Of a stretch of 64,000 nucleotides of DNA, positions 6,483 through 40,376 are shown one piece after another. The translations under genes were made by a program, and so were the position numbers. The stretch covers positions 1-64,000 of the forward strand of contig JAQMWT010000088.1 of NCBI GenBank assembly GCA_029834535.1, given 5' to 3'. Source of the DNA: Chrysophaeum taylorii (Eukaryota; Sar; Pelagophyceae; Pelagomonadales; Pelagomonadaceae). Position 1 is the stretch's first letter. Each line of letters opens with the position of its first letter. The notes beneath the pieces are model-generated. The model ran no database searches. It was not told the DNA's origin and saw only the letters and a list, made by a program, of their open reading frames with translations.

Positions 6483-7586
6483 TCCTAACTACTAATCGAC
6501 AGATGTTTGTCTGTCTGTTTGTTTGTCTGTCTGTTTGTCCCTCGATTTAGGGTAAGGATCAGGTAGGCGCGAGAGTAAGGATCAGGTAGCCGCGAGAGCC
6601 AGACAGTGATCCTCCAAGCCGTCTACGGCGACCTCGCAGACTATTTCCACGACCCGCGGCGGCTCTTTCAGCGCGCCATTCTCACGCCCCGTTGAAACGA
6701 TGTTGTCGATGCTGACAACGCGCGCATGACTGCGGCCTTTTTTTCCCGGAGACGAGGCGTCGGAGTTGTTTTTGGGGAGACTAGGTTGGGTCGGAAGACG
6801 ACGCCTCGCTCTTTACAGTAGAGTTTTCAACTCCCTGACAACCAACGGCATGCTGACTTTGATCGCGAGCTTAAAGTCTTCGCGACCTCGACCCGTCGCA
6901 CGGCCACTGCAACGGTACCAGATACATGATCGATCGTGTCGTTGTCACCGAGGCTCCTCCAACCTGTATCGCTTAAGGCCCACCTACGCCAAACGATCAA
7001 CAAGAGCCAGGGCCAGACGCCCCGCGAGGTCGGCGTCCTCTTTCCGAAGCCCGTCTTCTGCCACGTCCAGCTCTACGTGGCTCTCTGTCGATCGGCAACC
7101 CCGAGAATATCCTCTTCTGAGTCAACGACTCCACCCTACCCCACACGTGCTGCGCAATACCGATAAGCCCCCTCCCGGCGTCTACACGCGCACTGTAGGT
7201 GAACTTACTGGGACCAGGTGAACTTACTGGGGTTTGAGATTGGGACTAGGTGAACTTAGTGACCAGGTGAACTTACTGGGACCAAGTGAACTTACTGGGG
7301 TTTTTAGAGTGAACGCAAAGGCTAGCGGCGTGTACGGATCAAAGCAGCTTAGATTGGCGGAGGTGAGAGCGACGAGCTCGAAGGAGAGTGGGGTGAGTGG
7401 ATGTGAGCACGAGTGGCTTACGCCGAACTTACTGGGGTTAGAGATTGGGACTAGGTGAACTTACTGGGACCAGGTGAACTTACTGGGGTTAGAGATTGGG
7501 ACCAGGTGAACTTACTGGCGAACTTACTGGCCTGCACTTGAACTTACTGGGGTTAGAGATATGTGAACTTACTGGCCTGCACTTGT
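6483..7586 (+). mobile_element. Helitron-like element copy 1 with decayed Pif1 helicase C-terminus
   Basis: The element starts TCCTAACTACTAATCGACAG, followed by TGTC/TGTT repeats, and ends in GGCCTGCACTTGT; five other copies in the window share all or most of this outline. Its middle (about 6606-7165) encodes, across several frame slips, the C-terminal part of a Pif1/Helitron helicase. Visible blocks are a segment with RAILTPRRNDVVDADN, NSLTTNGM, CNGTRYMIDRVVV and TINKSQGQT followed by VFCHVQLYVAL. The last third is noncoding and contains many copies of the ~19-bp unit GTGAACTTACTGGGACCAG. Rep nuclease and helicase N-terminus are absent, so the copy cannot be autonomous. Confidence 0.7.
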
Positions 7587-7632
7587 CTGTCTTTAAATGT
7601 CGACTGCTAAGAGGAGGGGGTGTGTATGGGTA
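7587..7632 (-). mobile_element. LINE-like 3' end fragment between Helitron-like copies
   Basis: Read on the minus strand this short block ends CTCTTAGCAGTCGACATTTA, the same 3' end as the longer LINE-like insertion at 15165-15704 and the fragment at 22932-23000. Only about 45 bp are kept. It lies exactly between the 3' end of Helitron-like copy 1 and the shortened 5' end of copy 2. A shared 3' end with different 5' cut points is what target-primed reverse transcription leaves. Confidence 0.45.
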
Positions 7633-7633
7633 G

Positions 7634-8654
7634 TCTGTCCCTCGATTTAGGGTAAGGATCAGGTAGGCCCGCGAGGCCAGGCATTGATCCTCCAAGGCGT
7701 CTACGGCGACCTCGCAGACTGTTTCCACGACCCGCGGCGGCTCTTTCAGCGCGGCATTCTCACGCCCCGTCGAAACGATGTTGTCGACGCTGACAACGCG
7801 CGCATGACCGCGGCCTTTTTTTCCCGGAGACGAGGCGTCGGAGTTCTTTTCGGCCGACTAGGTTGGGTCGGAAGACGACGCCTCGCTCTCAAGAGTCGAG
7901 TTTTGAACTCCCTGACAACCAACGGCATGCTGACTTTGATCGCGAGCTTAAAGTCTTCGCAACCTCGACCCGTCGCACGGCCACTGCAACGGTACCAGAT
8001 ACATGATCGATCGTGTCGTTGTCACCGAGGCTCCTCCAACCTGTATCCCTTGAGGCCCGCCGACGCCAAACGATCACCAAGAGCCAGGGCCTGACGCCCC
8101 GCGAGGTCGGCGTCCTCTTGGCGAAGCCCGTCTTCTGCCACGTCCAGCTCTACGTGGCTCTCTGTCGATCGGCAACCCCGAGGATATCCTCTTCTGGGTC
8201 GACGACTCCACCCTACCCCACACGTGCTGCGCAATACCGATAAGCCCCCTCCCGGCGTCTACACGCGCACTATAGGTTAACTTACTGGGACCAGGTGAAC
8301 TTACTGGGACCAGGTGAACTTACTGGGGTTAGAGATTGGGACTAGGTGAACTTAGTGACCAGGTGAACTTACTGAGACCAAGTGCGAACTTACTGGGGCT
8401 TTTAGAGTAAACTAAAAGGTTAGCGGCGTGTGCGGATCAAAGCCGCTTAGATTGGCGGGGGTGAGAGCGACGAGCTCAAAGGAGAGTGGGTGTGAGTTTG
8501 CGTCGAACTTACTGGGGTTAGACTCTAACTTAGAGAGTGGGTTTACGCCGAATTTGCTGGGGTTAGAGATTGGGACTAGGTGAACTTAACAGAAACAGGT
8601 GAACTTGCTGGGGTTAGAGATTGGGACAAGGTGAACTTACTGGCCTGCACTTGT
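7634..8654 (+). mobile_element. Helitron-like element copy 2 (5' end missing)
   Basis: This copy begins within the 5' region at GTCCCTCGATTTAGGG, without the TCCTAACTAC terminus, and runs to the family 3' end GGCCTGCACTTGT at 8642-8654. The Pif1-type blocks are present in the same order and with the same frame slips as in copy 1 (about 7684-8245). The 3' third again consists of GTGAACTTACTGG repeats. Head-to-tail placement with copy 1 suggests tandem insertion or amplification, as reported for some Helitrons. Confidence 0.65.
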
Positions 8655-10117: not shown

Positions 10118-10130
10118 TGGTAGCAGGTGC
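10118..10130 (+). promoter_or_regulatory. Primer-binding site of copia copy 1
   Basis: The sequence TGGTAGCAGGTGC follows the LTR end directly. It starts with the TGG expected to pair with a tRNA 3' CCA. The first nine bases fit an initiator methionine tRNA acceptor end of the animal type; the algal tRNA was not available for checking. The related copies carry TGGTACCAGGTG at the same place. Confidence 0.6.
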
Positions 10131-10227
10131 AGCGTTCGTTCGTTCCGATCGAACCTGTGCTTGACTTCGTGGCGACTCCTCCTCGGCTTCAGTTCATTGC
10201 TACGTGTTCGGTTCGTTATCGTCTAAC

Positions 10228-12712
10228 ATGTCCTCGATCGAAATTAAAGATAGCAAGCTTTCGCAAAAACAAACTTGATGCCTTCAGTGGTGAGCGACAT
10301 CTTTTTCATCAATGGACCCGGCGCCTGGAAAACATGATCATTTCCACCGGTGATCGCATTATCTTGACCAATGACACTTGGACTAGCATTTCCGCCTCTG
10401 GCTGCTCTGAAGAAGAATTTGGTGTTAAGCAGCAACGTTGGTACTCTGCACTGTTCATGGCGCTACCAATGCATGATACTGATCGTGCGGATATCCGTGA
10501 AAACCGCGATATGAACTTCACGCGGCTTTACAAGCGCATTACCGATGTTTACATGGGCCATGGAGATCGTGTCGCTCAGTCTGCAATTGCTTCCTTGCAT
10601 TCCTTGGTATGCAACAATATCGATGAACTTGAGTCTTTTCTTAACAAGTTCATCACTGGTGTTCAAGTTGCTCGGCATCATCAAGATTTCCCTGACACTC
10701 TTGCATTGCAATTGCTTCAGACGAAAATCCGCGACTCGATCTTGTCTAAGGATCTCATTGCACTTGACCCTAAACTGCGCACATATGATGGTTTCGTTGA
10801 TCGCCTCAACAGTAAAGTTTTCGATTATCTTCAGACCAAGTCTGCGCTTGTCCATGCTACGTTCCGTGAAAGTCCCCGCCATCGTGAACGTTGCAACTTT
10901 TGCGGTCGTACCAACCATCCTTCTGATAAATGCCTTCATCGCCTCAATGCTTTGCGCTCCCAACAACGTTCTACATCTTTTCGCCCATCTTTCCGTAACC
11001 GACCTTCGTCTTCATTTTACCGTGGTTTCCATCGCAAGCGCCCACGCCCTACTGACCTTTGTCACTTTTGTGGTGTTCCTGGCCATCACCAGAAAGATTG
11101 TCGTAAGCGCCAGCGCTATTTGCTCTCACAAGCCACCGCCCGCCCTCGCCCTCGGCCTCAATACCCACCTCGGTCCAATCCCCAACACCCACCTCGGTCC
11201 AATCCCCAATACCCACCTCGGCCCCATCCACCATTCTACCAAAACTATCTTTCCGCCCCCATCCCACTCTTGCCTCCATCTCAACCCTCTCCGCCGCTTC
11301 TTGCTTTGCCACCCTCCACCACACCCCCTGTCCCACCTTCCACTGCCATCTCCCGTCCGGACCCATCTCTTTCTGCACCCACCTACCCGTCTTTCAATTA
11401 CCATCTTCTTTCTATCTCCCCCTCCATGCATCAAGTTCTTTCCTCCACCAATGCTCTTACCGCTCTGCTCACCGCTCCTGAGCGCGACTACCTGCACAGC
11501 AACAACCTTCGCCTCGTCGTCTACGATACCGGCGCAAACGTCAATCTCTTCAATTCTTCAGCTGGTTTCACTGACCTTGACAATACTCAGCAGCACTCCA
11601 TCACTTCTGCACTCGGCACTGGCTCTGTTTCTGGTTCTGGCACTGCTCACTTAACGTTTCCTTCAATTGGTCCTCTCGACAATCGTGGTCTTCCTTCTCC
11701 TCCACCCACTCTTTCCGCCCCTCATGGTATCCATGTCGCGTTCCCGCATACCCTCATTTCTCCTGGCCTTGGTGACAAACGGATTCTTTCGGATCATGCC
11801 CTTGAGCAAGTTGGTTACGATTGCCACACAATTCAGGCTGTTGGCCCTGCTCATCCGCAACGCATTTTACGTCACCGACAAACGCATCACGTTATTCCCC
11901 TGCTTCGTCGCTGTGGTCTTCTTTTGATCGTCTGTTGGATCGGCAATACGACCGCTGCGCCCTACGCGGACTTCGTTTCACCTTTTGTGGCATTTTCTTC
12001 TTGCCCTCGCGTCCATGACCCTTGTGCGTTTCCCGCTGTGTCTCAACGCACTCACCTTACCTTCGACCTTTGGCATGCTCGTCTTGGTCACTACAGTTCC
12101 TCTTATATCCGACGTTTGTCTTCTCTCGCTGTTGGCGCACCGCTTTTCCCGAGCTCCGCGTCTCTTTCTTTTTGTCCTGCTTGTGCTCTATGTAAAATGC
12201 ATGCTGCGCATGTTGGCCAACGTAAAGCACATGCTTCCACTTCCACTTCGCTTCCTGCCTCCGAGCCTTTGTCTCGTCCACGTGCCGTTGCGCCCTACCT
12301 TATTATCCACGCCGATCTCATGTTTGCAGGCGTCCCATCCTTCATTTGTCAAGACCGCGCGGTCCTCACGTTTGTCGATGATCATACGCGCCGCCGCACA
12401 CGTTACTTTGCTCCACGACACGATGCACTTACGAACGCTCGTCAACTCGAACTTTTTCTGTCTACCGTGGTTCGCCCATTTGGATATCGCATTGCCCTCA
12501 TCCACACCGATCGTGACCGCTCTCTTATGGGCCAATTCGAAACCTTCTGTCTGGGCAACAACATCGCTCTCAAACGTGCTCCTGCAGCTCAGTCCAAAAC
12601 TTCACAGGCGCACGCTTTTTCTGGTGTTGCGGAACGCTCTCATCGCGCAACTGCTGATATTACTCGCACTCTTTTGGTGCATGCGCACCGTCCACCTGAT
12701 TTTTGGCGTTAG
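10228..12712 (+). pseudogene. copia copy 1 gag-protease-integrase frame
   Basis: The likely native start is the ATG at 10228 (MSSIEIKD...), but that phase closes after 16 codons because of a 4-bp insertion near 10266-10276 that is absent from the copy at 51.4-55.9 kb. The main phase then runs open to a TAG at 12710-12712. Domains in order are a gag core; two CCHC zinc knuckles (10892-10933 and 11060-11101); a Pro-rich linker with short repeats (11157-11225); a protease with DTGA at 11525-11536; a GAG-pre-integrase motif HARLGH near 12075; and an integrase with Asp (12314), Asp (12509) and Glu (12632) in the expected D,D,E spacing. This matches a normal copia layout. Confidence 0.85.
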
Positions 12713-15112
12713 GCCATGGAAACGGCTGACTTCATCTCTGAGCGCATGCCAAGCGCCTCTAACCCTGGATATATGACGCCATATGAAATGATACATGAAA
12801 CTCTCCCTCGTGTCGATTTTCTTCGTGTTTGGGGCTGTCCTGCTGCAATTCTTACTGGCGACAAATAGCCTACCAAAGCTATAACAGGTATCTTCATTGG
12901 GTATCCCTCTGCAGGCCCTGGATATCGCATATTGCTTCAACGCACCACTGGTCCCGTCATCCACACCTCGATTGACGTTGTTTTTGACGAAAATTTTGCT
13001 CTGCGTAAGTCTCTGTCCTCTCAACCCCTTCCTCCGCCTTTTGTGGATTCTCGTTTTCCTGACTTATTTTATTACGACCCTCGTTTATCTTCCGCAGTTG
13101 CTCCCTTGTCTTCTGTTTTTGATGCTCAGGAGCCGGCCTTATCGGGACTGATCACCCCTGAAACAATACCACAACCGTCAACGGACAATACGAAACGTGC
13201 ACCATTACGTCGAGCCAAACGGGGCCGACCGCGCAAAGTCGACCAAAGCGCATTACAACAACCAACAAACTTTCATACTGGCGTTTGTCAACAACGCAAT
13301 GTCGATTCTGTTTCATCCCGTCACAATGTCGATTCTGTTTCCTCTGTCGCTTCTGTTTCCTCCTGTAACTCTTTGTATGTCTCTTATGCTAGCTTTCGTT
13401 TGTTAGTTCATTATGTCTTCCTTCCCCTTTGTTTAGCTAACACCCTTGTTGATCCCCATGCACATGTTTATTACTCTGCTTCCGAAGAAACCTCTCAGTA
13501 TTCATACATTGACGAGACCACCGTTACTTCCACTCATTTACGTGAAGCTTTCGCTCAGACCAATCCTGAGCGTCCTGGCTGGTTGCAAGCCATCGCCAAA
13601 GAGTATCACTCCCTTGGTCAGCTTGGTTGCTGGGATGTTGTTCGCCTTCCTTCGACTTTTTCTGGCAACATTTGTACCCTCAAGTGGATCCTCCGCAAGA
13701 AGCATGACTCTGGCCGCTTCAAATCGTACAAGGCTCGCCTCGTTGTCCGCGGTTACACCCAAGTTCACGGCATTGATTATCACGACACCTACTCGCCGGT
13801 TGCTAACATCGTCGCGATCCGTTTCTTTCTAACCTTTGTCGCTGTTCATGACTGGGATTTGCACAAGCTGGATGTCAGCTCCGCTTTTATCCAAGCTCCC
13901 ATTGACGAAGACATCTATGTCTGGCCACCCGAAGGCTATGCTCCTCGCCAACCCACCGATGGTTCCAAAATCGTTTACAAGCTCCGTCGCTCTTGGTATG
14001 GTTGCAAACAAGCTTGTCGCAATTGGTGGCTTTATTTGGATCGCTTCCTTATCAATGATTGTGGCTTCGTCCGCGGATCTGGTGACACTTGCAATTACAA
14101 GCTCGTGCTCAATTCTACCGTTGTCCTACGTCTCGTTCTTGTCGTTGATGATCTTCTTGTGGCGCACCCTCGTCATTGCATTGGCCATTACCAAGCCTTC
14201 TTCCTCCGTTTCAAAACCTTCGCTGACGTCAATGAGCTTGATCTCACCACTTACGTTGGTCTTCGCATTACGCGTGATCGCCCTCGGAGAACCCTCACTC
14301 TTGACCAATCCCATGCTGTCCGTGAAATCCTTACCGAACATCGCTTCATCAACAGTAAACCTGAACCGACTCCCGCTCCCAAAGGTCTTCATCTTTCTGC
14401 GGCTGATTGTCCTACTCCTGGTTCTCCAGATCACATCTTCATGGCGCGCATCCCTTTTCGTCGTATTGTTGGCTGTGTCCTATTTATCTCCATCATGACT
14501 CGCCCTGATATCACTTGGTCCGTCAATCAGTGTGCGCGTTTTTCCCACAATCCTGGTAAACCTCACTGGCACGCTTTATCTCACACTCTGCGTTATCTCA
14601 ACGGTTCTCAGGATCTTGCCCTTATTCTTGGTCGCGATTCTACCCTTCGTCTCTGTAGTTATTCCGACTCCAGCTGGGCCGACGATCCTGATGACCGCCA
14701 CTCCACAACTGGTATTTGTTTTCTCCTTGCAGGCTCTATGATCGCCTACTGCTCCCGCTCGCAGTACTTACTTGCTCGCTCATCTTTTGAAGCTGAATTG
14801 CTCGCTCTTTACGCCGCTACTGCTGAGCTCTCTTGGCTTCTCAAACTTTTTGATGAGTTTGATCTCCCTCGTCACAGGGTACCAATGTATGTCGATAATA
14901 GCACCACCGTCACCCAAGTCCGTCTCCAATGTCTCACACGGCGCACCCGCCATATTGACATTCGCTTTTACAGCACCGCCGAATATCATCATCGCAACCA
15001 CATCATTGATCTCCAACACATTCCTCGCCTTGACAACCTTAGCGATATCTTCACCCGCAGTACGGAAGCTCCTTCCTTCCTCCGGCTTCGTGCTCGTTAC
15101 CTCACCTCGTGA
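12713..15112 (+). pseudogene. copia copy 1 integrase C-terminus, reverse transcriptase and RNase H
   Basis: The same phase continues after the TAG at 12710 and meets a second TAG at 12866-12868, then stays open to a TGA at 15110-15112. Aligned by eye with the copia pattern, both TAGs sit where a residue (plausibly Gln, one base change from CAG) would be expected. The reverse transcriptase begins with WLQAIAKEY near 13580 and has the catalytic VVDD at 14141-14152, a variant of the usual YVDD. RNase H shows YSDSSWADDPDDRHSTTG near 14655-14710 and the C-terminal RHIDIRFY segment near 14953. Function needs readthrough of two stops, so I treat it as inactive. Confidence 0.85.
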
Positions 15113-15834: not shown

Positions 15835-15930
15835 TGTGAGGAAGCTATGACACTTACCCCTGCACCACGTATCTAGTATCCCTACGTCATTCCCTTATCG
15901 CTAGTCTAACGCCCCATTCCAGTTGTAACA
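15835..15930 (+). repeat. 3' LTR of copia copy 1 (96 bp)
   Basis: The LTR runs from TGTGAGGAAGC to GTTGTAACA, with TG...CA ends. It matches 10030-10117 plus the first eight bases of the 5' LTR, with a single G/T mismatch in the third base of the 5' repeat's second edge. It is followed by the CTTAG target duplication. At 96 bp it is very short for a copia LTR. Confidence 0.85.
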
Positions 15931-16089
15931 CTTAGTTACATCGATTTTTTGTGTGCTTAGTTAGAACCATTTGGTTTTGTATGATACTAACCCTTAAGTT
16001 GATTCTAACTTAGGTTTGTGATGCTGCATCAAATTAAGCTGCTAAATAGGTCACACTTAAGTCGTTGTTGTCAGCGCGGGGTAGCTGGC

Positions 16090-16590
16090 TCCCTTGCCCT
16101 GGTGGCTATCTGCATGGTTGCTGTGGTGGACGTACGCCTTGCGCAGGCATCTGTCCCTTCGGCGTAGGTTGTCACCTGTTCGCCTCCCGGGCGATGGTGC
16201 ACCTACGCCTTGAGCTGGCATCGGTCCCCCCGGCGTAGGTTTGCACCTGTTAGCCTCTCGGGCGATGGTGGACCTACACCTTGCGCAGGTACCAGTCCTC
16301 CCGGCGTAGGTTGGAACCCGTTCGTCTCTCGGGAGATAGTGGACGTACACCATGCGCGGGTACCAGTCCTTCCGGCGCACATTGGCACCTGTTCGCCTCC
16401 TGAGCGGGCCGGTTGGAAGCCGGAACGTTAGCAATGGGACGGGTTATGGCCGGGGGACGCCTAAGGAAAAGTTATCGACGCGATGGTTGTCAGCCAAATC
16501 GTGGTCTCCGTGTCGCATGGCGACAGGCGTCAACTCTCCCCCAACGCTCCTTTCAGCGCCTCTCGTCTGAAAAAATCCCTGGCGATTCTG
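16090..16590 (+). mobile_element. (TTAG)-tail retroposon family, copy A, with expanded VNTR and lost tail
   Basis: This copy begins CCCTTGCCCTGG near 16090, like the copy at 39.88 kb, includes a 71-bp tandem block, and continues with GGGCCGGTTGGAAGCCGGAAC into a body shared with the copies at 21599, 39881 and 40377. The last part of the family body and the TTAG tail are not recognisable after about 16575. The family looks like a non-coding, SINE-like retroposon. Open frames read through it in the other copies are not conserved proteins. Confidence 0.55.
16130..16413 (+). repeat. 71-bp tandem repeat inside retroposon copy A
   Basis: Three full 71-bp units start at 16130, 16201 and 16272, and a fourth from 16343 grades into the retroposon body. 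Each unit contains CGGCGTAGGTTG, CACCTGTTCGCCTC and ACCTACGCCTTG or close variants. The copy at 39.88 kb has only about one unit, so the block expanded in this copy or shrank in the other. Confidence 0.8.
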
Positions 16591-16615
16591 ATCCCGCGCG
16601 CTTCGGCGTTGGGAT

Positions 16616-16697
16616 TATTCTACGCCTCATGCACTGCGCTAGCCTATCGTTAAATCTATTCTACGCCGCACGCACTGCGCTGGCCTCTCGTTAAATC
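16616..16697 (+). repeat. 41-bp tandem duplication
   Basis: Two adjacent 41-bp units (16616-16656 and 16657-16697) share TATTCTACGCC, GCACTGCGCT and CGTTAAATC, with a few substitutions. It lies between the retroposon copy and the MULE gene and has no coding role that I can see. Confidence 0.75.
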
Positions 16698-17130
16698 GTT
16701 AGTCGGGGGTCCACAAGGCGATCAGGGAAAGCGGGCGCGAGAACCTAGGGTCTAGGCGTCGACGGCCGGCATTGGCGGCAGGGGCAGCCGCCAGTAATGG
16801 CCATAGAGGTCGTTGACATTACGACGCGCCGGTACGCGGCGAGCTCGTCGTAGTCGGGAGCGCGACGAGCTGCCATTGCGATGGTTTCACTGGGACGGAT
16901 GTGGTTTAACTCTCCCCAGCTGCCTACCCGCCAGCGAAGCTCCATGCCGTAGCGGGATTCACCGTGATGTTGTTGTCGGGGTCGCCCGCCGTTCTTGGTC
17001 GTTAACGGGCCGTCGGCGGGCAGAAGTCGGTGGATGGAGTCGGACGGGCAGCCCCAGCGCAAGTCCCAGAGATTCAAAGGAAGAGCGTCCTTGCGTGGGG
17101 CTTGGGGGTCTAGTTCTCGAAGTAGCAGGT
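16698..17130. other. 3' flank of the MULE gene
   Basis: Short frames exist on both strands but none is conserved or recognisable. The stretch probably includes the 3' untranslated region of the minus-strand MULE gene and a transposon end. A terminal inverted repeat could not be found by eye. Confidence 0.35.
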
Positions 17131-18257
17131 CTACAGGAGGAGGCTCGGCGTAGTCGAGCAGTTTGCATCGGGCTTTTCGCGGCGAAGGCTGCAGCGAGAA
17201 GTCGAAGGGGCCACCGCCGGCGGCTGTGCCATGAGCACGGATTTGCCGAAGGGGTAGTGGACCTGCAGAAGCCAGTTAGTAAGCATCGGCTGACGGTCAA
17301 TCGTCATCCTGGGCTTACCTTGTCTACCGGCGCTTCCTAGAAGGATTGGCAGACGGCTTGGCAGACGGCTTGGCAGACAGCCAAGTTGCATGCGATTTCT
17401 CGGCGGCGGCGCGAAGCGAGCGCGTGCGTCCGGCGGCCTAGTGAGCTGCGAGGTTGTGGAGAATTCGATGACAGTCCACTCACGGATCCAATATAGCCGT
17501 CGGCTGGTCCTGCAAAAGGGTTTTACCCAAACGACATATTGCCTGAGACGCACATTGGAAGGTAGGTAGTAGCCCATGGCAATCTCGCTGGTGATGCAAC
17601 GGTCGCCTCCCCATTCGTGGGAGTCGGCAGTGGAGCCGTCGTCGTACTCGACGATGACGTACGTATTTGACTGGCGGTGCTCGACCTTCGCAATACCCGC
17701 GACATAGTCGCTTGGGGACTTGTGCTCCATGAAGTTCTTATCGGTGGCCATGACTCGGACGGAATCGCGCTGCTCGTTGATGAGCTCGTCGATCAAATTC
17801 TGCAGTTTGGCTTGGGCAGAGTGCTTGGCAGAAGTGGTCGTGGGAAACCAAGAAGAAGCAGCGCTGGCTTCTTGAGACACCGCAGGACCCTGCGCGTCTC
17901 CAACAAGGCGGGGCATCGAAACGGGCTGGTCACCATATTTACGGAGTTGTCCAGCGTCCGCCTTCTTCCGAAAGCGCAAGCTGGACCAGGGAGGGTCTGC
18001 AGCCGGACGCTTGCATGCGCGCGCGCGTGCCTTGTTGTTTGAAGCGCCATCGTCGATCACGTCGGCATCGCCGATATTGAGAGTCGGGATCGCACGGACG
18101 GAGTTGGCGTTGAGCTCGGCCTCCATGTCCTCCTGGACGGAGTTGGCGGCGAGCTCGGCCTCCATATTCTCCTTCTCATGATCCAGTTGATCCTGCGCTA
18201 GCGCCGCTGCTGCTTCCTCATCCGCTTCCTCTACCTCGTCCTCCTCGTCCTCCACGC
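17131..18257 (-). CDS. MULE gene, C-terminal exon (acidic tail)
   Basis: After a 41-nt intron (18258-18298) the MULE frame continues in phase as an acidic region (VEDEEDEVEEADEEAAAAL) with two copies of a MEAEL-ANSV unit (around 18190-18100). A segment follows near 17705-17610 (AKVEHRQSNTYVIVEYDDGS) that looks like a small beta-rich, Tudor- or chromo-like fold, but this is only an impression. The exon runs to a stop near 17131. It may be the transposase tail or a downstream protein joined by my choice of intron. Confidence 0.5.
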
Positions 18258-18298
18258 CTGTGGAAACAGTAAGAGATGTTCCAGACTGAGCTCTGCAC
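18258..18298 (-). other. Predicted 41-nt intron in the MULE gene
   Basis: On the minus strand the interval starts GTGCAG and ends TTTCCACAG, with a pyrimidine-rich 3' part. Removing it joins QQKGS to GVEDEED in phase and avoids a frame that otherwise ends at 18231. Confidence 0.6.
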
Positions 18299-18927
18299 CT
18301 GAGCCTTTCTGCTGCGACGGGACACCAGCAAGTCCGCTGATTATGCCCTTCCTTGCTTTCTGCGTTTTGCGCTGCGACTTTTTAGAGTCCTGGCCTCGTC
18401 CACGCTTGGTCTTGACAATCTGCGCTCGAGCAGGGTCCTCGAAACGCTGATGCTTCTTAGGCCGCCCTGATTGCTTCGGCTTGATACAGGGTGGCAAGAC
18501 AGAGTCCTGCAAGTCGCCACTTTCGAGTCGCCCCTGATATGCGGCTTCGACGTCATCTTTGTCCAGAATTCGAAGTGGCTCCAGGCCTTCGTACTGCAAA
18601 CTATGGTAGTTGTTGGTGCACCACCTCGGATAGAGGCTGGCGGGATCCTTAGCTCGCGATTCCTGGGCGATGATCATGCACCCACATGGCAGTCCCGTAG
18701 TTGAGAAGCGGCCGCAAGCGCAGCTGAAATTCACAGATGCCTGGCCTCCATAGTCAGCTTCGTTAATGAAGTCTCGGGGGCCAATGATGACCGAGTAAAT
18801 CTTCTCGCGAGTATTGTCGGCCAAGGGCCATTTAATAGCAAAACGACCTTCGTCTTCGCTGACCATACGCACAGTTGCACGCGACGCGGCTGCGCGCCGT
18901 GTCACCAGATCCTCGTAGGCTGCCGTT
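18299..18927 (-). CDS. MULE gene, SWIM zinc finger exon
   Basis: The exon follows a ~215-nt intron (18928-19142; GTAAGTG...CTTCGCAG) and keeps phase with the exon before it. It contains CACGRFSTTGLPCGCM (around 18735-18690), which fits the SWIM pattern CxC...C-x-H of MULE transposases except that the final His is Cys. After about 90 residues comes KQSGRPKKHQRFEDP, the basic GRPKK motif found at the C-terminus of many MULE and FAR1-like proteins. SWIM fingers bind DNA or protein. The Cys could still hold zinc. Confidence 0.7.
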
Positions 18928-19142
18928 CTGCGAAGTTCCACGCGGAGGTGTCACGTGGCTAAGTCCAGTCACAAAAAAAAGTGTTTCTTCGATCATAATA
19001 AGCTCAGATAGATGTCCTGGCTGCGACTTTTTTTATTCAAATGTAACTTTGTTTGATTCAAATGCAATTTTGTTTGATACAAAACAAATTACTTTGATAC
19101 AATAAGACTTAGTTTGATACAGTTACACTTCATAGCACTTAC

Positions 19143-19402
19143 GTCAGACGCATCGAGCTTTTCTTCGCCTCAGCTGCGGCAGCGAGTGGTTGGTTGAAAC
19201 GCTGGCTTGTTTCCTTGATGGCGACGAACAGCGACCTCGGCATGTTGGTCAGCCGGGCATTTATGTTCATGTTGTTGTGCGACTCGGCCATGTTTGTCGT
19301 CGTCTTGCCCATGAGGTTCTTCCCCGCGTTTAGAGCGCTGAAGGTGATATTGGCTCGGTGCTTCGAGGCGGTGTCGTTGGCGGTTTTCAGGCGGTGTGCG
19401 AG
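19143..19402 (-). CDS. MULE gene, exon with TTTNMAESHNN motif
   Basis: The exon begins LAHRLKTAND after a 40-nt intron and ends SSMRLT before the GTAAGTG donor at 19142. Its middle reads TTTNMAESHNNMNINARL (around 19300-19250), the equivalent of the TSN-AES-N block that lies between the catalytic core and the SWIM finger in MULE transposases. Phase is kept across both splice junctions, which supports a real spliced gene. Confidence 0.7.
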
Positions 19403-19442
19403 CTGTAGAAGCGGAGTGAGCAGCACTTTGGTTGACACTTAC
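19403..19442 (-). other. Predicted 40-nt intron in the MULE gene
   Basis: The interval reads GTAAGTGTCAACC at its start and CCGCTTCTACAG at its end on the minus strand. Splicing joins AKEW to LAHRL in phase 0. At 40 nt it is near the lower limit of known spliceosomal introns. Confidence 0.65.
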
Positions 19443-20336
19443 CCATTCCTTTGCCAGTCTTGACATCTGGGCACGAGCCCGATCCATCTCGTGGATTGTC
19501 GTTGCCGTCGCGCCCACTCGCGGTAGTTCTCGCCGTCACCCGGCTTGCCTGACTTGGAGCAGTTCTCTCCGCCGTGGTTTCCTGCACAAGAGCACTGTCA
19601 GATGGCGCCGCCTTTCGGTCTAGGGCATACTGCAGCCAAGAAGCTCTGCCGCCGGCATGACCTACGGCGCGCGCGAAGCTGAGGATGCTGAAGGTTGTAT
19701 TCCATCGTACCTTTACATGCGCAGTGATGCCGCCCTTTGCAGCATCGGCGACGGAGATGTGGCGGCGGCTCTTGAGCTCGGGCATGACGCTTGCGCAGAA
19801 CTTGTTGAACATAGTCGCCGTCGTGGCATTTTCAGTGTCGCTGAATAGTGCCATTCCAAGCGTGACGATACGATCATTGGCGTCGGCGGTGACCCGGGAA
19901 AAAAGCGTGTCGTCTAGCATGGTGTGCGCAGCGTCGACTTCCGTCCGCAGGCTCCAAAGGCCTGCTTTGGTGAATCGATCCGCGTGCGGCACAGTTATTA
20001 GCCAGCCTGACACAAACTTGACATCTTCGAACTCGGGGTCAATGAGCTGCTCCGGCGAAAGTCCGCTTGCTTTTCGTCGAAGTTCGAAGCCTGGTTTTCC
20101 GCCTTCGCGAAGTCCTTCTTGCACCGATTAATGAAGCGGGCCTTGAGTTCCTGCTGTGTCGAGAGGAGGATCTTGACGCGGAAACCTTGATTCTCGGCGA
20201 GATCCTTGAAGACGAAGATCCGATCCTGCGCAAACACCGCGTATACATGCATGAATGGTACAGCATGGCGATGTTTCAACATAGTATTCGATAGGTCGAA
20301 ATTGACGTAGTTTGACGGCTGAAACCGGCTAAACAT
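19443..20336 (-). CDS. MULE transposase core (broken)
   Basis: Two overlapping minus-strand frames joined by a slip near 20060 cover this part. The downstream frame contains LRTEVDAAHTM, then TADANDRIVTLGMALFSDTE, then ISVADAAKGG (around 19925-19715). These correspond to the first catalytic Asp region, the conserved strand with the E, and the second Asp region of the MULE DDE domain. A further intron may remove the stretch after HVK (GTACG... near 19712), since that part loses similarity. The exact boundaries there are uncertain. Confidence 0.6.
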
Positions 20337-20369
20337 GGCTGAAAAGAATGAACACTGGATTGTTACGGC

Positions 20370-21070
20370 CTAGTACTCCCCATCCCCGACCCAGTTCTTG
20401 TACACTAATTCTTTGATGTTCTGAGCACGCTTCGGACATACTCCGCAGTACAAATATGGCTTGAGAATCGCGGCGAGCACCTTGTTCGTGACGTCGATCT
20501 CGGTCTTTTTCTCGTGGTTGCCGCCTTGCTGGCCGTCGATGGATGCTAGGACGGCGTCCTTGAGAATATTTTCAAGGTGCCTGGCCGAATAGTTGGACTT
20601 GGCCTGGGTGGCCATCGGCTTGAAATCCCCAGAAATGCAGGTGTGAGGTACGGCGGCCGTGCACGTGCCGGCAGGGCCGTCACACCCGCGTGGCACCTGG
20701 AAGACGCGCAAGAACTCGCAGTCTTTGGCCTTGCAGACAATGTCCATCCGCCGCTTTGTGGACCTGGAATTCTCGAGAGAAGGTGGCCGTCTTTCTCGGC
20801 TTCCTCCAGGACGTGTAACTGAAAGTCCCACTTTGATTTGAAGCCATTCCCCACGGTCACCACCTCGTGGTCGATCTCCCTCAGATGAGCCAATTTCCGC
20901 GGCTCGCGGCCTTCGTAAGTTTCGGTGCAGTCGCGAGACGTGCCTGTCCTCCTAACGGGCCTTTTCCTTCGGTCTTCATCCACAGCCTTCTCGAATGCCA
21001 ATTGAATGTCATCTTCGTCGCTGTCCCCGAACTCCATCGTAGACCCGAGGGACTCCCGCCGTGCCTCCAT
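20370..21070 (-). CDS. MULE gene, N-terminal zinc finger region (frame slip)
   Basis: The frame beginning MEARRESLGSTM is acidic, then reads NGFKSKWDFQLHVLEEAEKD. After a slip near 20790 another phase continues with CKAKDCEFLRVFQVP and VPHTCISGDF. The Cys-x4-Cys ... His-x-Cys arrangement is the WRKY/GCM1-like zinc finger found at the N-terminus of MULE transposases. The phase ends with a stop at 20370 after KNWVGDGEY; a splice donor there was not convincing. It is upstream of the catalytic core, as expected. Confidence 0.6.
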
Positions 21071-21082
21071 GGCGCTCCCACA

Positions 21083-21598
21083 CCTCCCTGACCTGTCAGC
21101 CTCGCGAACAGGCTACCGTTGTCGTGGACAATCCAGGGTTAATGCGCGGTGCCGCTCATCGTCGCGTCTGAAGACTATGCAAAGAACACGACATTCTCGT
21201 CGTATCCCGCGTGAATCGCGAGTCCATCGAATAAGCCCGCGCGCAGTACGGACATCTCCTGCGCGGGCGCCTCAAGAAAACGTCGGAGATCCCCTCGGAA
21301 CCGAACGGAGAGCCACCACCCGAAGACCTATAACAAGTGCGCGTGGGCGGCCTAGCGATTTTAGTACATAACTTCTGTGACCGTGCCATGCAGCTTTCAG
21401 GGCGGCACGGTTTCACCATGCCGTGCGGATGTGACGGGTGGCATGGCACGGAAACTGGCGTGCGGGTTATTTTGGTCCCAACGCTCCAGCTTAGTTTGAA
21501 CCACTTGGGCTTAGTTTGATATCATCATTTGAATCAAACAAAGCCATCGACTTTCCTCCAACTAAGTCATGATGAAGCTCTAATTACACCACAGAATA
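21083..21598. other. 5' flank of the MULE gene, ending in a target duplication
   Basis: No gene is recognised. A short inverted arrangement (GTGCCATGC... and GCATGGCAC, around 21383-21446) could form a hairpin. The last 13 bases (21586-21598, ACACCACAGAATA) are repeated exactly at 21875-21887 and flank retroposon copy B. Confidence 0.4.
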
Positions 21599-21874
21599 AC
21601 TAACTAACTAACTAACTTCAGACCTCTCCCGAGCATGGGAGCCAGGCCGGACCGACAGGAGCCTGTCCGGAATCACGGGCCTGTAGACGAGGGGCGCCGA
21701 AAGGTGGGTCGGCGGAGAGTGATCATCAAGCTTGTCGCCATGCGACGAGGAGACCGCGATGTGACTGACAACCAACTCGTCGATAACCTTCCGTCTGCGC
21801 CCCCCGGCCATACCCCGTCCCACTACGAACGTTCCGGCTGCCAACCGGCCCGCCCGGGAGGCGAATAGGTGCCA
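21599..21874 (-). mobile_element. (TTAG)-tail retroposon family, copy B, with 13-bp target duplication
   Basis: On the minus strand the element runs from GGCACCTATTCGCC to GGTCTGAAGTTAGTTAGTTAG, ending in a TTAG simple-repeat tail. Exact 13-bp direct repeats ACACCACAGAATA lie at 21586-21598 and 21875-21887. A simple tail plus a 13-bp duplication is typical of a retroposon mobilised by a LINE. No polymerase III promoter box was confirmed, so SINE is a description of form only. Confidence 0.7.
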
Positions 21875-21908
21875 ACACCACAGAATAGTTGGATCTAACT
21901 AATCCATA

Positions 21909-23041
21909 ACAAGTGCAGGCCAGTAAGTTCACCTAGTCCCAATCTCTAACCCCAGTAAGTTCACCTGGTCCCAATAAGTTCACCTGGTCAGTAAGTTCAC
22001 CTAGTCCAAATCTCTATCCCCAGCAAGTTCGGCGTAAACCCACTCGTGCTCGCACCACTCCTTCGAGCTCGTCGCTCTCGCCTCCGCCAATCTAAGCTGC
22101 TTTGATCCGCACACGCTGCTTTGATCCGCACACGCCGCTAACCTTTGAGTTTACTCTAAAAATCCCCGTAAGTTCACCTGGTCCCAGTAAGTTCACCTGG
22201 TCACTATATTCACCTAGTCCCAATCTCAAACCCCAGTAAGTTCACCTGGTTCCAGTAAGTTCACCTACAGTGCGCGCGTAGATGCCGGGAGGGGGATTAT
22301 CGGTATTGCGCAGCACGTGTGGAGTAGGGTGGAGTCGTCGACTCAGAAGAGGATATCCTCGGGGTTGCCGATCGACAGAGAGCCACGTAGAGCTGGACGT
22401 GGCAGAAGACGGGCTTCGCCCAGAGGACGCCGACCTCGCGGGGCGTCTGGCCCTGGCTCTTGTTGATCGTTTGGCGTACGCGGGCCTTAAGCGATACAGG
22501 TTGGAGGAGCCTCGGTGACAACGACACGATCGATCATGTATCTCGTACCGTTGCAGTGGCCGTGCGACGGGTCGAGGTTGCCAAGACATTAAGCTCGCGA
22601 TCAAAGTCAGCATGCCGTTGGTTGTCATGGAGTTGAAAACTCTACTGTAAAGAGCGAGGCGTCGTCTTCCGACCCAGCCTAGTCAGCCGAAAAGAACTCC
22701 GACGCCTCGTCTCCGGGAAAAAAAGGCCGCGGTCATGCGCGCGTTGTCAGCATCGACAACATCGTTTCGACGGGGCGTGAGAATGGCGCGCTGAAAGAGC
22801 CGCCGCGGGTCGTGGAAATAGTCTGCGAGGTCGCCGTAGACGGCTTGGAGGATCGCTGTCTGGCTCTCACGCCTACCTGATCCTTACTCTCGCGCGCCAC
22901 GTGATCCTTACCCTAAATCGAGGGACAAACAAACACCCACCCACATCCTTCATGCTCCCCACACACACCCCCCCCTCTTAGCAGTCGACATTTAAAGACA
23001 AACAAACAGACAAACAAACATCTGTCGATTAGTAGTTAGGA
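21909..23041 (-). mobile_element. Helitron-like element copy 3
   Basis: The minus-strand copy has the family 5' end (TCCTAACTACTAATCGACAG, at 23041) and 3' end (CCTGCACTTGT, at 21909). The Pif1-type blocks, including TINKSQGQT and VFCHVQLYVAL, lie at about 22860-22297 with the same frame slips as the other copies. A LINE-like 3' fragment (22932-23000) is embedded in its 5' region, between the TGTC/TGTT repeats and the CCCTCGATTTAGGG block. Confidence 0.65.
22932..23000 (+). mobile_element. LINE-like 3' end fragment inside Helitron-like copy 3
   Basis: About 65 bp match the end of the fragment at 15165-15704, from CCCACCCACATCCTTCATGC to CTCTTAGCAGTCGACATTTA. Here the piece is followed by AAGACA. 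It is cut at its 5' side well short of the copy in the copia element. Confidence 0.5.
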
Positions 23042-23979: not shown

Positions 23980-24999
23980 ACAAGTGCAGAGTTCACCTAG
24001 TCCCAATCTCTAACCCCAGTAAGCTCACCTAAACCCAGTAAGTTTCATATAAGTTCACCTGGTCAGTAAGTTCACCTAGCTCTAACCAACTCCTTCGCTC
24101 TCGCCTCCGCCAATCTAAGCTGCTTTGGCCCGCACGCGCCGCCAACCTTTGAGTTTACTCTAAAAACCCTTTACTGTGAAAACCCCAGTATGTTCACCTG
24201 GTCCCAGTTTCACCTGGTCACTCAGTCCACCTAGTCCCAATCTCAAACCCCAGTAAGTTCACCTGGTCCCAGTAAGTTCACTTACAGTGCGCGTGTAGAC
24301 GCCGGGAGGGGGCTTATCGGTATTGCGCAGCACGTGTGGGGTAGGGTGGAGTCGTCGACTTAGAAGAGGATATCCTCGGGGTTGCCGATCGACAGAGAGC
24401 CACGTAGAGCTGGACGTGGCAGAAGACGGGCTTCGCCAAGAGGACGCCGACCTCGCGGGGCGTCTGGCCCTGGCTCTTGGTGATCGTTTGGCGTCGGTGG
24501 GGCTTGAGGGATACAGGTTGGAGGAGCCTCGGTGACACGACACGATCGATCATGTATCTGGTACCGTTGCAGTGGCCGTGCGACGGGTCGAGGTTGCGAA
24601 GACTTTAAGCTCGCGATCAAAGTCAGCATGCCGTTGGTTGTCAGGGAGTTGAAAACTCGACTGTAAAGAGCGAGGCGTCGTCTTCCGACCCAACCTAGTC
24701 GGCCGAAAAGAACTCCGACGCCTCGTCTCCGGGAAAAAAAGGCCGCGGTCATGCGCGCGTTGTCAGCATCGACAACATCGTTTCGACGGGGCGTGAGAAT
24801 GGCGCGCTGAAAGAGCCGCCGCGGGTCGTGGAAATAGTCTGCGAGGTCGCCGTAGACGGCTTGGAGGATCACTGTCTGGCTCTCGCGCCTACCTGATCCT
24901 TACTCTCGCGCCTACCTGATCCTTACCCTAAATCGAGGGACAAACAGACAAACAGACAAACAGACAGACAGACAAACATCTGTCGATTAGTAGTTAGGA
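23980..24999 (-). mobile_element. Helitron-like element copy 4
   Basis: The copy runs on the minus strand from the 5' end at 24999 to the CTGCACTTGT end at 23980. It has one of the longest readable helicase parts: the frame at 24872-24360 carries RAILTPRRNDVVDADN and continues through NSLTTNGM before slipping. Its 5' end directly abuts the 3' end of copy 5, sharing at most one base. Confidence 0.65.
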
Positions 25000-25978
25000 C
25001 AAGTGCAGGCCAGTAAGTTCACCTAGTCCCAATCTCTAACCCCAGTAAGTTCACCTGGTCCCAGTAAGTTCACCTTGTCCAAATCTCTAACCCCAGTAAG
25101 TTCGGCGCAAACCCACTCGTGCTCACATGCACTCACCCCACTCTCCTTCGAGCTCGTCGCTCTCACCTCCGCCAATCTACGCTGCTTTGATCCGTACACG
25201 CCGCTAGCCTTTGCGTTCACTCTAAAAACCCCAGTAAGTTCACTTGGTCCCAGTAAGTTCACCTGGTCACTAAGTTCACCTAGTCCCAATCTCAAACCCC
25301 AGTAAGTTCACCTGGACCCAGTAAGTAGGGGTAGGGTGGAGTCGTCGACTCAGAAGACGATATCCTCGGGGTTGCCGATCGACAGAGAGCCACGTAGAGC
25401 TGGACGTGGCAGAAGACGGGCTTGGGCAAGAGGACGCCGACCTCGCGGGGCGTCTGGCCCTGGCTCTTGTTGATCGTTTGGCGTCGGCGGGCCTTACGGG
25501 ATACAGGTTGGAGGAGCCTCGGTGACAACGACACGATCGATCATGTATCTGGTACCGTTGCAGTGGCCGTGCGACGGGTCGAGGTTGCGAAGACTTTAAG
25601 CTCGCGATCAAAGTCAGCATGCCGTTGGTTGTCAGGGAGTTAAAAACTCTACTGTAAAGAGCGAGGCGTCGTCTTCCGACCCAGCCTAGTCAGCCGAAAA
25701 GAACTCCGACGCCTCGTCTCCGGGAAAAAAAGGCCGCGGTCATGCGCGCGTTGTCAGCATCGACAACATCGTTTCGACGGGGCGTGAGAATGGCGCGCTG
25801 AAAGAGCCGCCGCGGGTCGTGGAAATAGTCTGCGAGGTCGCCGTAGACGGCTTGGAGGATCACTGTCTGGCTCTCGCGCCGACCTGATCCTTACTCTCGC
25901 TCCTACCTGATCCTTACCCTAAATCGAGGGACAAACAGACAAACAGACAGACAAACATCTGTCGATTAGTAGTTAGGA
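24999..25978 (-). mobile_element. Helitron-like element copy 5
   Basis: The copy has the same outline as copy 4, in perfect head-to-tail tandem with it. The helicase blocks lie at about 25860-25300, and the segment between them and the GTGAACTTACTGG repeats is slightly shortened (around 25325). The tandem junction at 24990-25010 reads CCTGCACTTGT then CCTAACTAC on the minus strand, giving a clean view of both element ends. Confidence 0.65.
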
Positions 25979-35306: not shown

Positions 35307-35918
35307 ATGTTCTCCAAGGTCGTCGTCGCGCTCTGTCTCACCTCGGCTGCTGCCTTCGCGCCCGTGGCCTCCCACGCAGCCCCCAAGACCGTCGTCAAGG
35401 CCTTCGAGACCGAGCTTGGCGTCCAGCCTCCGCTTGGCTTCTTTGACCCTCTCGGCCTCCTCGCGGATGCCGACCAGGAGAAATTCGAGCGCCTCCGCTA
35501 CGTCGAGATCAAGCACGGCCGCATCTCGATGCTTGCCGTCCTCGGCCAGATCGTGACCAAGGCGGGGATCTTCCTCCCAGGTACCATCGACTACTCGGGC
35601 ACCAAGTTCTCCGACGTCCCGACGGGCTTTGGTGCCTTCTCCGCGATCCAACCGGCAGGCATCGCCCAGATCGTCGCCTTCGTCGGGTTCCTCGAGCTCT
35701 TCGTGATGAAGGACTCGGCCAACGGCGCCGCTCCCGGCGAGTTCCCGGGCGACTTCCGCAACGGCGCGCTGGACTTTGGGTGGGACTCGTTCTCGGCCGA
35801 GGAGAAGCTGAGCAAACGTGCGATCGAGCTCAACAACGGCCGCGCTGCCATGATGGGCATCCTCGCGCTCATGGTCCACGAGGAGCTCGGTGTTTCCCTC
35901 TGGCCGGGCGGCATCTAA
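35307..35918 (+). CDS. Fucoxanthin chlorophyll a/c-binding protein, array copy 1
   Basis: The gene encodes a 203-residue light-harvesting antenna protein of the thylakoid, expected to bind chlorophyll a, chlorophyll c and fucoxanthin and pass energy to the photosystems. I chose the ATG at 35307 because it opens with a signal peptide (MFSKVVVALCLTSAAA) followed by FAP, the ASAFAP-type motif that directs proteins across the membranes of red-derived secondary plastids; the upstream extension is not conserved in form. LHC helix 1 carries ERLRYVEIKHGRISMLAVLG (about residues 59-78) and helix 3 carries ELNNGRAAMMGILALM (about 178-193), with the Glu/Arg pairs that hold chlorophyll. No intron. Copies 1-4 encode identical proteins. 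Confidence 0.92.
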   Translation: MFSKVVVALCLTSAAAFAPVASHAAPKTVVKAFETELGVQPPLGFFDPLGLLADADQEKFERLRYVEIKHGRISMLAVLGQIVTKAGIFLPGTIDYSGTKFSDVPTGFGAFSAIQPAGIAQIVAFVGFLELFVMKDSANGAAPGEFPGDFRNGALDFGWDSFSAEEKLSKRAIELNNGRAAMMGILALMVHEELGVSLWPGGI

Positions 35919-35960
35919 GTGCAATCCCAGCAGCATCGCTGCTGCCGCGACGGCCGCGCC
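35919..35960 (+). other. 3' hairpin after each light-harvesting gene
   Basis: Eight bases after the stop codon, CAGCAGCATCGCTGCTG can fold into a 7-bp stem with a 3-base loop, followed by GCGACGGCCGCGCCTTTTT. It recurs after every array copy; copy 4 loses the last pair through a G-to-A change. It may stabilise the mRNA or aid 3' end formation; that role is inferred. Confidence 0.5.
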
Positions 35961-36494
35961 TTTTTGCTTGCGCGTAGACCCAAGAGTACAATGTGAACCG
36001 AGGTAGATAATAATGATGTGGCTCATATAACTGGCCGCCCACGGGTAGTTTGAGTAAGTCGGATTTCCTCTGTCGAACAGGGATGTTATTCGTGAGGATG
36101 AGCACGACGTACGCGGCACTACAAGCTCAAGACGCGAGGAGCTTCGACGCACGAGAGAGCGAGAAAATGGCATTCCGGCATGCTGCGCGGGGGGTCAAAG
36201 ACAAGCGTGATCGGCAGCCGCTTTGATTCTACTGCATGAAACTACGGTGTGGAACGCCGTGCGGCAATCAGCTTTGCGCTTTCTTGCTTCTTCTTAGCCG
36301 TCCTCCTTGACGCGTTCTTGCACATCGACAGTGGACCCTAGACGAGATAGCAATAGGCCCTATAGCAGGGTAGCCAAAAGATTCGGTTGAGGATCTCTTT
36401 TGCTAAAAAGTAATACACGTGCAAGATCGCGCGAAACTTAAACCCTTGCCCCAAAGATCGCGCGTGGAGAAGCGTTCAAAACACAAACGAAAGG

Positions 36495-37106
36495 ATGTTC
36501 TCCAAGGTCGTCGTCGCGCTCTGTCTCACCTCGGCTGCTGCCTTCGCGCCCGTGGCCTCCCACGCAGCCCCCAAGACCGTCGTCAAGGCCTTCGAGACCG
36601 AGCTCGGCGTCCAGCCTCCGCTTGGCTTCTTTGACCCTCTCGGCCTCCTCGCGGATGCCGACCAGGAGAAATTCGAGCGCCTCCGCTACGTCGAGATCAA
36701 GCACGGCCGCATCTCGATGCTTGCCGTCCTCGGCCAGATCGTGACCAAGGCGGGGATCTTCCTCCCAGGCACCATCGACTACTCGGGCACCAAGTTCTCC
36801 GACGTCCCGACGGGCTTCGGTGCCTTCTCCGCGATCCAACCGGCAGGCATCGCCCAGATCGTCGCCTTCGTCGGGTTCCTCGAGCTCTTCGTGATGAAGG
36901 ACTCGGCCAACGGCGCCGCTCCCGGCGAGTTCCCTGGCGACTTCCGCAACGGCGCGCTGGACTTTGGGTGGGACTCGTTCTCGGCCGAGGAGAAGCTGAG
37001 CAAACGTGCGATCGAGCTCAACAACGGCCGCGCTGCCATGATGGGCATCCTCGCGCTCATGGTCCACGAGGAGCTCGGTGTTTCCCTCTGGCCGGGCGGC
37101 ATCTAA
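36495..37106 (+). CDS. Fucoxanthin chlorophyll a/c-binding protein, array copy 2
   Basis: The protein is identical to copy 1, including signal peptide, FAP motif and both LHC helix motifs. At the DNA level it differs by a few silent changes, for example GAGCTC for GAGCTT near codon 34. It is preceded by the same ~230-bp upstream segment as copies 3 and 4. Confidence 0.92.
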   Translation: MFSKVVVALCLTSAAAFAPVASHAAPKTVVKAFETELGVQPPLGFFDPLGLLADADQEKFERLRYVEIKHGRISMLAVLGQIVTKAGIFLPGTIDYSGTKFSDVPTGFGAFSAIQPAGIAQIVAFVGFLELFVMKDSANGAAPGEFPGDFRNGALDFGWDSFSAEEKLSKRAIELNNGRAAMMGILALMVHEELGVSLWPGGI

Positions 37107-37690
37107 GTGCAATCCCAGCAGCATCGCTGCTGCCGCGACGGCCGCGCCTTTTTGCTTGCGCGTAGACCCAAGAGTACTACACATGAACCGAGGTAGATAA
37201 TAATGATGTGGCTCATATAACTGGCCGCCCTTCGCCACGGGTAGTTTGAGTAAGTCGGATTTCCTCTGTCGAACAGGGATGTTATTCGTGAGGATGAGCA
37301 CGACGTACGCGGTACTACAAGCTCAAGACGCGAGGAGCTTCGACGCACGAGAGAGCGAGAAAATGGCATTCCGGCATGCTGCGCGGGGGGTCAAAGACAA
37401 GCGTGATCGGCAGCCGCTTTGATTCTACTGCATGAAACTACGGTGTGGAACGCCGTGCGGCAATCAGCTTTGCGCTTTCTTGCTTCTTCTTAGCCGTCCT
37501 CCTTGACGCGTTCTTGCACATCGACAGTGGACCCTAGACGAGATAGCAATAGGCCCTATAGCAGGGTAGCCAAAAGATTCGGTTGAGGATCTCTTTTGCT
37601 AAAAAGTAATACACGTGCAAGATCGCGCGAAACTTAAACCCTTGCCCCAAAGATCGCGCGTGGAGAAGCGTTCAAAACACAAACGAAAGG

Positions 37691-40254: not shown

Positions 40255-40376
40255 AGCCGTCCTCCTTAACGCGTTCTTGGACATCGACAGTGGACCCTAG
40301 ACGAGATAGCAATAGGCCCTATAGCACGGTAGCCAAAAGATTCGGTTGAGGATCTCTTTTAACTAACTCGGTTGAG
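40255..40376 (+). repeat. Displaced array spacer with 26-bp duplication
   Basis: This is the normal upstream segment of the light-harvesting units, from GCCGTCCTCC to GAGGATCTCTTTT, now cut off from copy 5 by a second retroposon. The segment CGGTTGAGGATCTCTTTT is present twice, each followed by AACTAACT, which is the complement of the TTAG tail. This looks like a tail-only retroposon insertion with an 18-bp target duplication. Confidence 0.6.

Follow-up and report, generated by a model that had tools for sequence, protein, structure and literature searches.

SINE-1, a LINE-derived mosaic retroposon of Chrysophaeum taylorii with a probable change of helper

The genome of the pelagophyte alga Chrysophaeum taylorii contains a family of short retroposons, here named SINE-1, whose ends resemble those of two different long interspersed elements (LINEs). 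SINE-1 is probably a non-autonomous retroposon of LINE sequence that descends from an older family, SINE-B, exchanged its tail for that of LINE-A or SINE-2, and is mobilized by LINE-A. Short interspersed elements (SINEs) rely on LINEs and are expected to die with them; tail exchange has been proposed earlier as a means of escape, mostly from comparisons of tRNA-headed SINEs. The family was encountered in a 64,000-nucleotide stretch of DNA, the window (GenBank assembly GCA_029834535.1, contig JAQMWT010000088.1, positions 1 to 64,000), which is contig C88 of the 70.8-Mb, 697-contig assembly that was scanned. The names SINE-1, SINE-2, SINE-B, LINE-A, and LINE-B are labels coined in this analysis.

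In size SINE-1 falls among SINEs, and it is, as a sequence-only reading of the window had proposed, a non-coding retroposon family ending in (TTAG)n; target duplications are frequent and copies occur throughout the genome. A 48-base internal piece has 1,235 genome-wide matches at three or fewer mismatches (reversed-pattern control, 0). The consensus form of this 48-mer occurs exactly 757 times. By the pattern counts made here (the patterns differ in length, and up to three mismatches are allowed throughout), SINE-1 is the most numerous of the five families. Its consensus has a length of 369 bases when the tail is cut after 16 bases, and it contains a single 71-bp unit. A genome search with a full-length window copy, copy C, gave at least 41 matches, all but one of them at or above 97% identity; scoring covered the best 40 of 1,809 first-look candidates, and the list therefore represents the most similar end of the family. 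The termini, read by eye, are CCCTTACCC at one end and (TTAG)n at the other, with no inverted repeat. A DNA transposon or miniature inverted-repeat transposable element was rejected, as no terminal inverted repeat is apparent by eye and the duplications vary from 3 to 57 bp rather than being fixed; the DNA-transposon ends that the sequence-only reading had regarded as fatal to its own proposal were not seen.

Empty sites and target duplications mark SINE-1 copies as insertions. Target duplications were sought at 30 clearly anchored copies from 29 of 30 loci, with hits shorter than 340 bases and both copies at locus L008 excluded; L019 and L021, neither of which has a duplication, are probably a single site on two haplotigs. 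At 14 of the 30 copies, an exact duplication of 8 bp or longer is placed consistently with the element ends; among mismatched pairs, made of flanks taken from different loci, the figure is 2 of 868. A wider search that allows one mismatch finds at least 8 bp at 17 of the 30 copies (3/235 controls) and at least 10 bp at 13 (0/235 controls); the flank check suggested in the sequence-only reading thus comes out in favor of insertion. The copy at L022 has a 57-bp duplication with one mismatch, and those of the other 16 duplicated copies measure 8–20 bp. Each of these 17 flank pairs was fused into one sequence and searched for in the window and the loci then available. Five of them (L003, L005, L006, L018, and one of the L030 copies) align without a break to a paralogous site along the full 120 bases, at 93–97% identity, and others match in part or at lower identity.

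Three SINE-1 copies are located in the window. Copy C (39884–40252, forward strand) is full length, with a LINE-B-like head and body and a LINE-A/SINE-2-like 3' tail ending in (TTAG)n. Copy D (about 40382–40593, reverse strand) is 5'-truncated, starting at SINE-1 position 163, and has a TTAG tail. Copy B (21599–21874, reverse strand), 5'-truncated from position 96, has a (TTAG)4 tail and lies between two exact 13-bp copies of its target-site duplication (21586–21598 and 21875–21887, both ACACCACAGAATA), just as first described. Copies B and D are 96.8% and 96.7% identical to copy C, respectively. Copies C and D sit between units four and five of a tandem array of light-harvesting genes, and three other spacers of this array, which agree at 97–99% in pieces, are without them. 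These spacers provide empty paralogous sites within the window for copy C (about 36294, 37490, and 38687; junction overlap, 3 bp) and for copy D (about 36397, 37593, and 38790; junction overlap, 5 bp).

A reverse-transcriptase (PF00078) search of the genome gave at least 152 matches (150 of 611 candidates scored). Thirty loci were fetched; four on contig C696 were set aside, leaving 26 loci (L037–L062) of the non-LTR (long terminal repeat) element LINE-A, with the pairs L041/L042 and L057/L058 probably being haplotigs. In the one copy read throughout, LINE-A measures 3,449 bases up to its tail and has 1,113 open codons from stop to stop. Its reverse transcriptase matches RVT_1 at 4e-25, and the nearest named PDB chains are LINE-1 ORF2p and R2. 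A 90-residue piece has a weak match to Exo_endo_phos (E=0.005, below the family cut-off), and the PF14529 profile has no match in the genome. We think that LINE-A is RTE-like, judging from its single frame, very short 3' untranslated region, simple-repeat tail, and an LAQDRAQWR-like C-terminal motif of a kind known from RTE elements. The 3' end of SINE-1 is present at 26 of the 26 LINE-A loci, over about 69–81 bp. The elements' own tails match it at 77.6–88.5% identity and finish in GAAG and somewhat variable TTAG repeats; L045 and L039 additionally contain nearby SINE-1 and SINE-2 copies. Three LINE-A copies were read out to both ends, and by eye each of the three has a target duplication and a SINE-1-type tail. 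The window itself includes a decayed piece of the 3' coding end of LINE-A (46647–46959, forward strand; two overlapping matches at 81.7% and 85.9%). Contig C696 has several strong reverse-transcriptase matches, and it may be an organelle genome, given that at least one of them, the L033 frame, resembles a group II intron maturase by its text.

SINE-2 (L031 and L032) is a simple internal deletion of LINE-A. The 5' part corresponds to the first 218 bp or so of LINE-A at about 93% identity, and the 3' part matches the last 166–182 bp at 80.8–86.8% in 24 of the 26 LINE-A loci, with shorter pieces in the other two. The SINE-2 junction has 616 matches genome-wide (control, 0). A 34-base pattern from the LINE-A 3' end has 327 matches, part of them at SINE-2 places, and a pattern from the LINE-A 5' head has 67 (27 with one mismatch or none).

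The second LINE is known from more damaged copies. A 90-residue piece from the LINE-A N terminus has at least 82 matches in the genome (150 of 378 candidates scored). The LINE-B set consists of 20 matches at 31–58% identity, 8 of which have an internal stop; five of the best eight (47–57%) are among those with a stop. LINE-B is more decayed than LINE-A. The 5' ends of all five fetched LINE-B copies match the SINE-1 head at 80–85%, and the SINE-1 head aligns with the LINE-B head on contig C624 with a score of 240 (shuffle maximum, 40), as against 159 with LINE-A when scored identically (shuffle maximum, 44). The C624 copy has a 3' end distinct from that of LINE-A, with a predicted hairpin of its own and a TTAG tail. 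The core of a LINE-B-type tail, 28 bases taken from SINE-B, occurs 194 times genome-wide (control, 0). Of five further partial matches that seem to run past the SINE-1 body, two (L083 and L084) prove to be old copies of SINE-1 whose tail is of the LINE-A type, and L080–L082 have a LINE-B tail. Two of the latter three extend into a head with one 71-bp unit, and L081 begins inside the unit. The LINE-B tails on L080–L082 and on copy A, an old relative in the window, indicate an older dispersed family, SINE-B, with the head, body, and tail of LINE-B.

As judged from the alignments, SINE-1 is a mosaic of a LINE-B-derived head and body, probably acquired through SINE-B, and a tail of the LINE-A/SINE-2 type. 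The profile was obtained from one alignment of SINE-1 with three SINE-B copies, copy A, and two SINE-2 copies. At positions 61–120, 121–180, 181–240, and 241–285, SINE-1 agrees with the three SINE-B copies at 87–92%, 80–87%, 83–88%, and 70–72%, and in the last 64 bases (290–353) at 55–58%. The corresponding values for copy A are 75, 87, 85, 76, and 50% over the five intervals. Agreement with the two SINE-2 copies is 67–68, 69–71, 47–49, and 47–49% in the first four intervals, then 92–94% in the last. The switch in similarity falls at GTGATTC, a motif present in both parents. The SINE-1 tail is closer to SINE-2 (57/61) than to LINE-A (52/61), and SINE-1 positions 237–290 resemble the LINE-A coding end weakly (38/500 shuffles as good). 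An earlier reading, in which SINE-1 came from LINE-A alone, was overturned by the LINE-B heads. Both short families have two LINE ends and a deleted coding centre (LINE-A ends in SINE-2; a LINE-B head and a LINE-A/SINE-2 tail in SINE-1), and SINE-1 combines target duplications with a tail common to a potentially active helper.

The tails of LINE-A, SINE-1, and SINE-2 have a predicted fold in which a 9-bp hairpin is followed by a 5-bp hairpin. Pairing holds in 93.6% of cells over 10 distinct rows (31–51% in slid controls), and the covariation score is matched by 1 of 500 shuffles. The folding z values are -2.37 for the SINE-1 tail, -1.69 for that of LINE-B, and -0.57 for that of copy A.

In the history proposed here, SINE-B would have arisen by internal deletion of LINE-B with both LINE ends retained, the 5' end being thought to carry the start site and promoter (promoter activity of the SINE-1 head is likewise putative) and the 3' end the landing site of the reverse transcriptase. 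A SINE-B RNA would later have gained the 3' tail of LINE-A or SINE-2, probably by template switching at the common GTGATTC. The LINE-A protein, a candidate helper on account of the common tail, would then recognize the tail hairpins and (TTAG)n, although such recognition is a prediction, and copy the mosaic by target-primed reverse transcription. This process is expected to produce copies that end sharply on the 3' side and vary in both their 5' truncation and their target duplications. SINE-1 would have amplified after the tail exchange.

The exchange could instead have occurred between LINEs, in which case SINE-1 would be a plain internal deletion of a third, unseen LINE that resembled LINE-B at its 5' end and LINE-A at its 3' end. 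Recombination among LINE lineages is possible on general grounds, and a distant relationship between the LINE-A and LINE-B 3' ends is possible (the SINE-1 3' half scores 40 against the C624 3' end; maximum of 300 shuffles, 37). A third LINE is nevertheless unlikely. Among the listed matches longer than 40 residues, identities to the LINE-A piece are either 80–100% or 31–58%, with none between, although the scoring of 150 of 378 candidates leaves room for an unscored copy. The SINE-1 body at positions 181–285 is also far nearer to SINE-B, a short element, than to SINE-2, and the tail is nearer to the short SINE-2 than to the full LINE.

Several observations weigh against the preferred history of tail exchange and LINE-A mobilization. 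The LINE-B 3' end is known from one copy, C624, a second (C316) diverging before a recognizable end. SINE-1 positions 1–60 do not discriminate between the parents (SINE-B, 74–76%; SINE-2, 69–74%). Folding of the LINE-A tail barely exceeds that of shuffled sequence (z -0.70), and the tail hairpin contains two two-sided pair changes, a number attained by 95 of 500 shuffles, so that support for the hairpin is modest. Even with the wider search, duplications reaching 8 bp are missing from 13 of the 30 SINE-1 copies, and the junction overlaps at copies C and D are short. The 30 tested copies are those closest to copy C, and their apparent youth is therefore biased; the proportion of exact matches to the 48-mer (757/1,235) was taken genome-wide and is free of this bias.

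It is very improbable that SINE-1 is instead a classical SINE with a head of the polymerase III type, derived from a gene that can no longer be recognized. An A-box-like TGGTTGCGATGG (11/12) is found at SINE-1 position 25 and at position 28 of the LINE-A head, yet A plus B boxes are no better than in shuffled sequence (18/100 and 11/100 shuffles as good), and the head corresponds to the 5' end of a LINE that codes for protein. Neither SINE-1 nor SINE-2 has a match to tRNA, 5S, or 7SL RNA up to E=10, and Rfam finds nothing in the window at gathering cut-offs. The search for such ancestry and promoter boxes that the sequence-only reading suggested was negative, and SINE-1 shows no sign of the tRNA/5S/7SL head and polymerase III promoter of a canonical SINE. 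The 5' head folds no better than shuffles (z 0.10 in SINE-1, -0.89 in LINE-A).

Copy A (16090 to about 16700, forward strand), which had been grouped with copies B, C, and D, is a SINE-B relative and a passenger of a larger repeat. Its identity to copy C is just 79%, across positions 65–287. Its 3' end (about 16591–16652) is of the LINE-B type, scoring 62 against the LINE-B 3' end (shuffle maximum, 35) and no better than shuffles against SINE-1 (15) and LINE-A (20). The single-family grouping therefore holds for copies B, C, and D but not for copy A, which bears the tail of another LINE. The head of copy A consists of about four 71-bp units, and a tandem-repeat scan places the array at 16124–16400 (forward strand). 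The larger repeat spans at least 15930–17068 and is about 90–97% identical in the four fetched copies that have both window flanks; the remaining three of the seven fetched relatives have the left flank only (L069), the right flank only (L071), or a rearrangement (L072). This repeat is multi-copy, with a left boundary in the window at 15930 and common sequence further upstream in the four other copies. A Mutator-like element around copy A is unsupported, since the five open frames tested within 17,131–21,070 have no Pfam match.

The 71-bp variable number tandem repeat (VNTR) is real in copy A but is not the family feature it had been taken for. The junction between two units occurs at nine places on eight contigs genome-wide, every one of them a contig of the copy-A group (two, C179 and C537, are not among the fetched loci), and self-comparison reveals tandem units in 0 of 5 LINE-B heads. 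The most plausible reading of the array is a local expansion within the larger repeat, outside the anatomy of the mobile family. The four or so units of copy A are what suggested an SVA-like composite with a functional VNTR, but that idea can in effect be discarded given nine junctions restricted to the copy-A group against 1,235 SINE-1 matches, five LINE-B heads without tandem units, and a single-unit SINE-1 consensus. Hominid SVA elements are likewise non-autonomous and composite, and one copy here has a VNTR; unlike them, the algal family has no poly(A), has a head and tail derived from LINEs, and has a VNTR only as an atypical feature.

Comparable systems have been described in other organisms. 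Trypanosome RIME, NARTc, and TvRIME are short, non-coding internal deletions of the LINEs ingi/L1Tc with a common 5' signature, and, like the algal elements, they are LINE-derived and thought to be moved by a parent LINE (PMC3820030). They belong to the ingi clade, their tails are poly(dA), and their duplication is a conserved one of 12 bp (PMC3820030), whereas the algal elements have a (TTAG)n tail, widely variable duplications, and, in SINE-1, a mosaic of two LINEs. The first 77 bases of such trypanosome elements are reported as a polymerase II promoter in L1Tc (PMC4748587). Lepidopteran RTE elements have a single open frame encoding both reverse transcriptase and endonuclease, very little sequence in the 3' end region, 3' simple repeats, and few full but many partial copies, traits that the algal LINE appears to share; in the available part of that account the partial copies are described as having intact 3' ends, not as fixed internal-deletion families or mosaics (PMC2887409). 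HaSE1 and HaSE3 of Helicoverpa armigera are an RTE-tailed SINE and a putative chimera with the same body and tail, which places recombination of SINE modules on record (PMC3272025). Their heads are of tRNA and 5S rRNA origin and it is the head that was exchanged (PMC3272025); in the algal case all modules are LINE-derived and the tail was apparently exchanged. The available part of a survey of microalgal transposons lists L1-type LINEs and 14 potential SINE sequences in a haptophyte and does not mention RTE (PMC5963040). Searches of the open-licence literature, Repbase not included, brought up no account of a comparable family in diatoms or other stramenopile algae, nor of this combination of features elsewhere.

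Other features of the window adjoin these elements or are dispersed around them. The light-harvesting array (35310–41303) comprises five or more nearly identical genes for fucoxanthin chlorophyll a/c-binding proteins in tandem, the first four about 1.2 kb apart; for the one protein searched, the closest PDB chains are named fucoxanthin chlorophyll a/c proteins, and the best of these entries come from diatoms. Copy D is about 100 bases upstream of the start codon of the fifth gene, and TRF reports a 26-bp tandem duplication of flank and tail sequence adjoining it (40342–40394). Frames at 10127–15112 and 51669–53091 resemble copia-type LTR retrotransposons by their text. A 19-base unit, AGGTGAACTTACTGGGACC, forms dispersed short arrays (7197–8397, 21920–22266, 24180–24271, 25041–25288, and 51048–51150), and a perfect (GACA)25 array occupies 47060–47160. 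Elsewhere in the assembly, the contig pairs C10/C297 and C25/C521 have similar matches at nearly identical coordinates, which suggests retained haplotigs that would be useful for the study of insertion polymorphism.

On balance, the stages of a change of helper seem to be preserved in this genome (LINE-B, now decayed, with its old derivative SINE-B, and the younger LINE-A with its derivative SINE-2), a change in which SINE-1 may have left a failing helper by capturing the tail of another. Donor, recipient, mosaic, and both putative helpers occur together in the small genome of one alga, where the crossover region is narrow and the empty sites are clean. The crossover lies at GTGATTC, beside the hairpin of the tail, and its position suggests that a 3' tail of about 65 bases determines which LINE moves the RNA. 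With all partners in one genome and the crossover so narrow, the minimal tail required for the choice of helper would be testable by a swap of about 65 bases.

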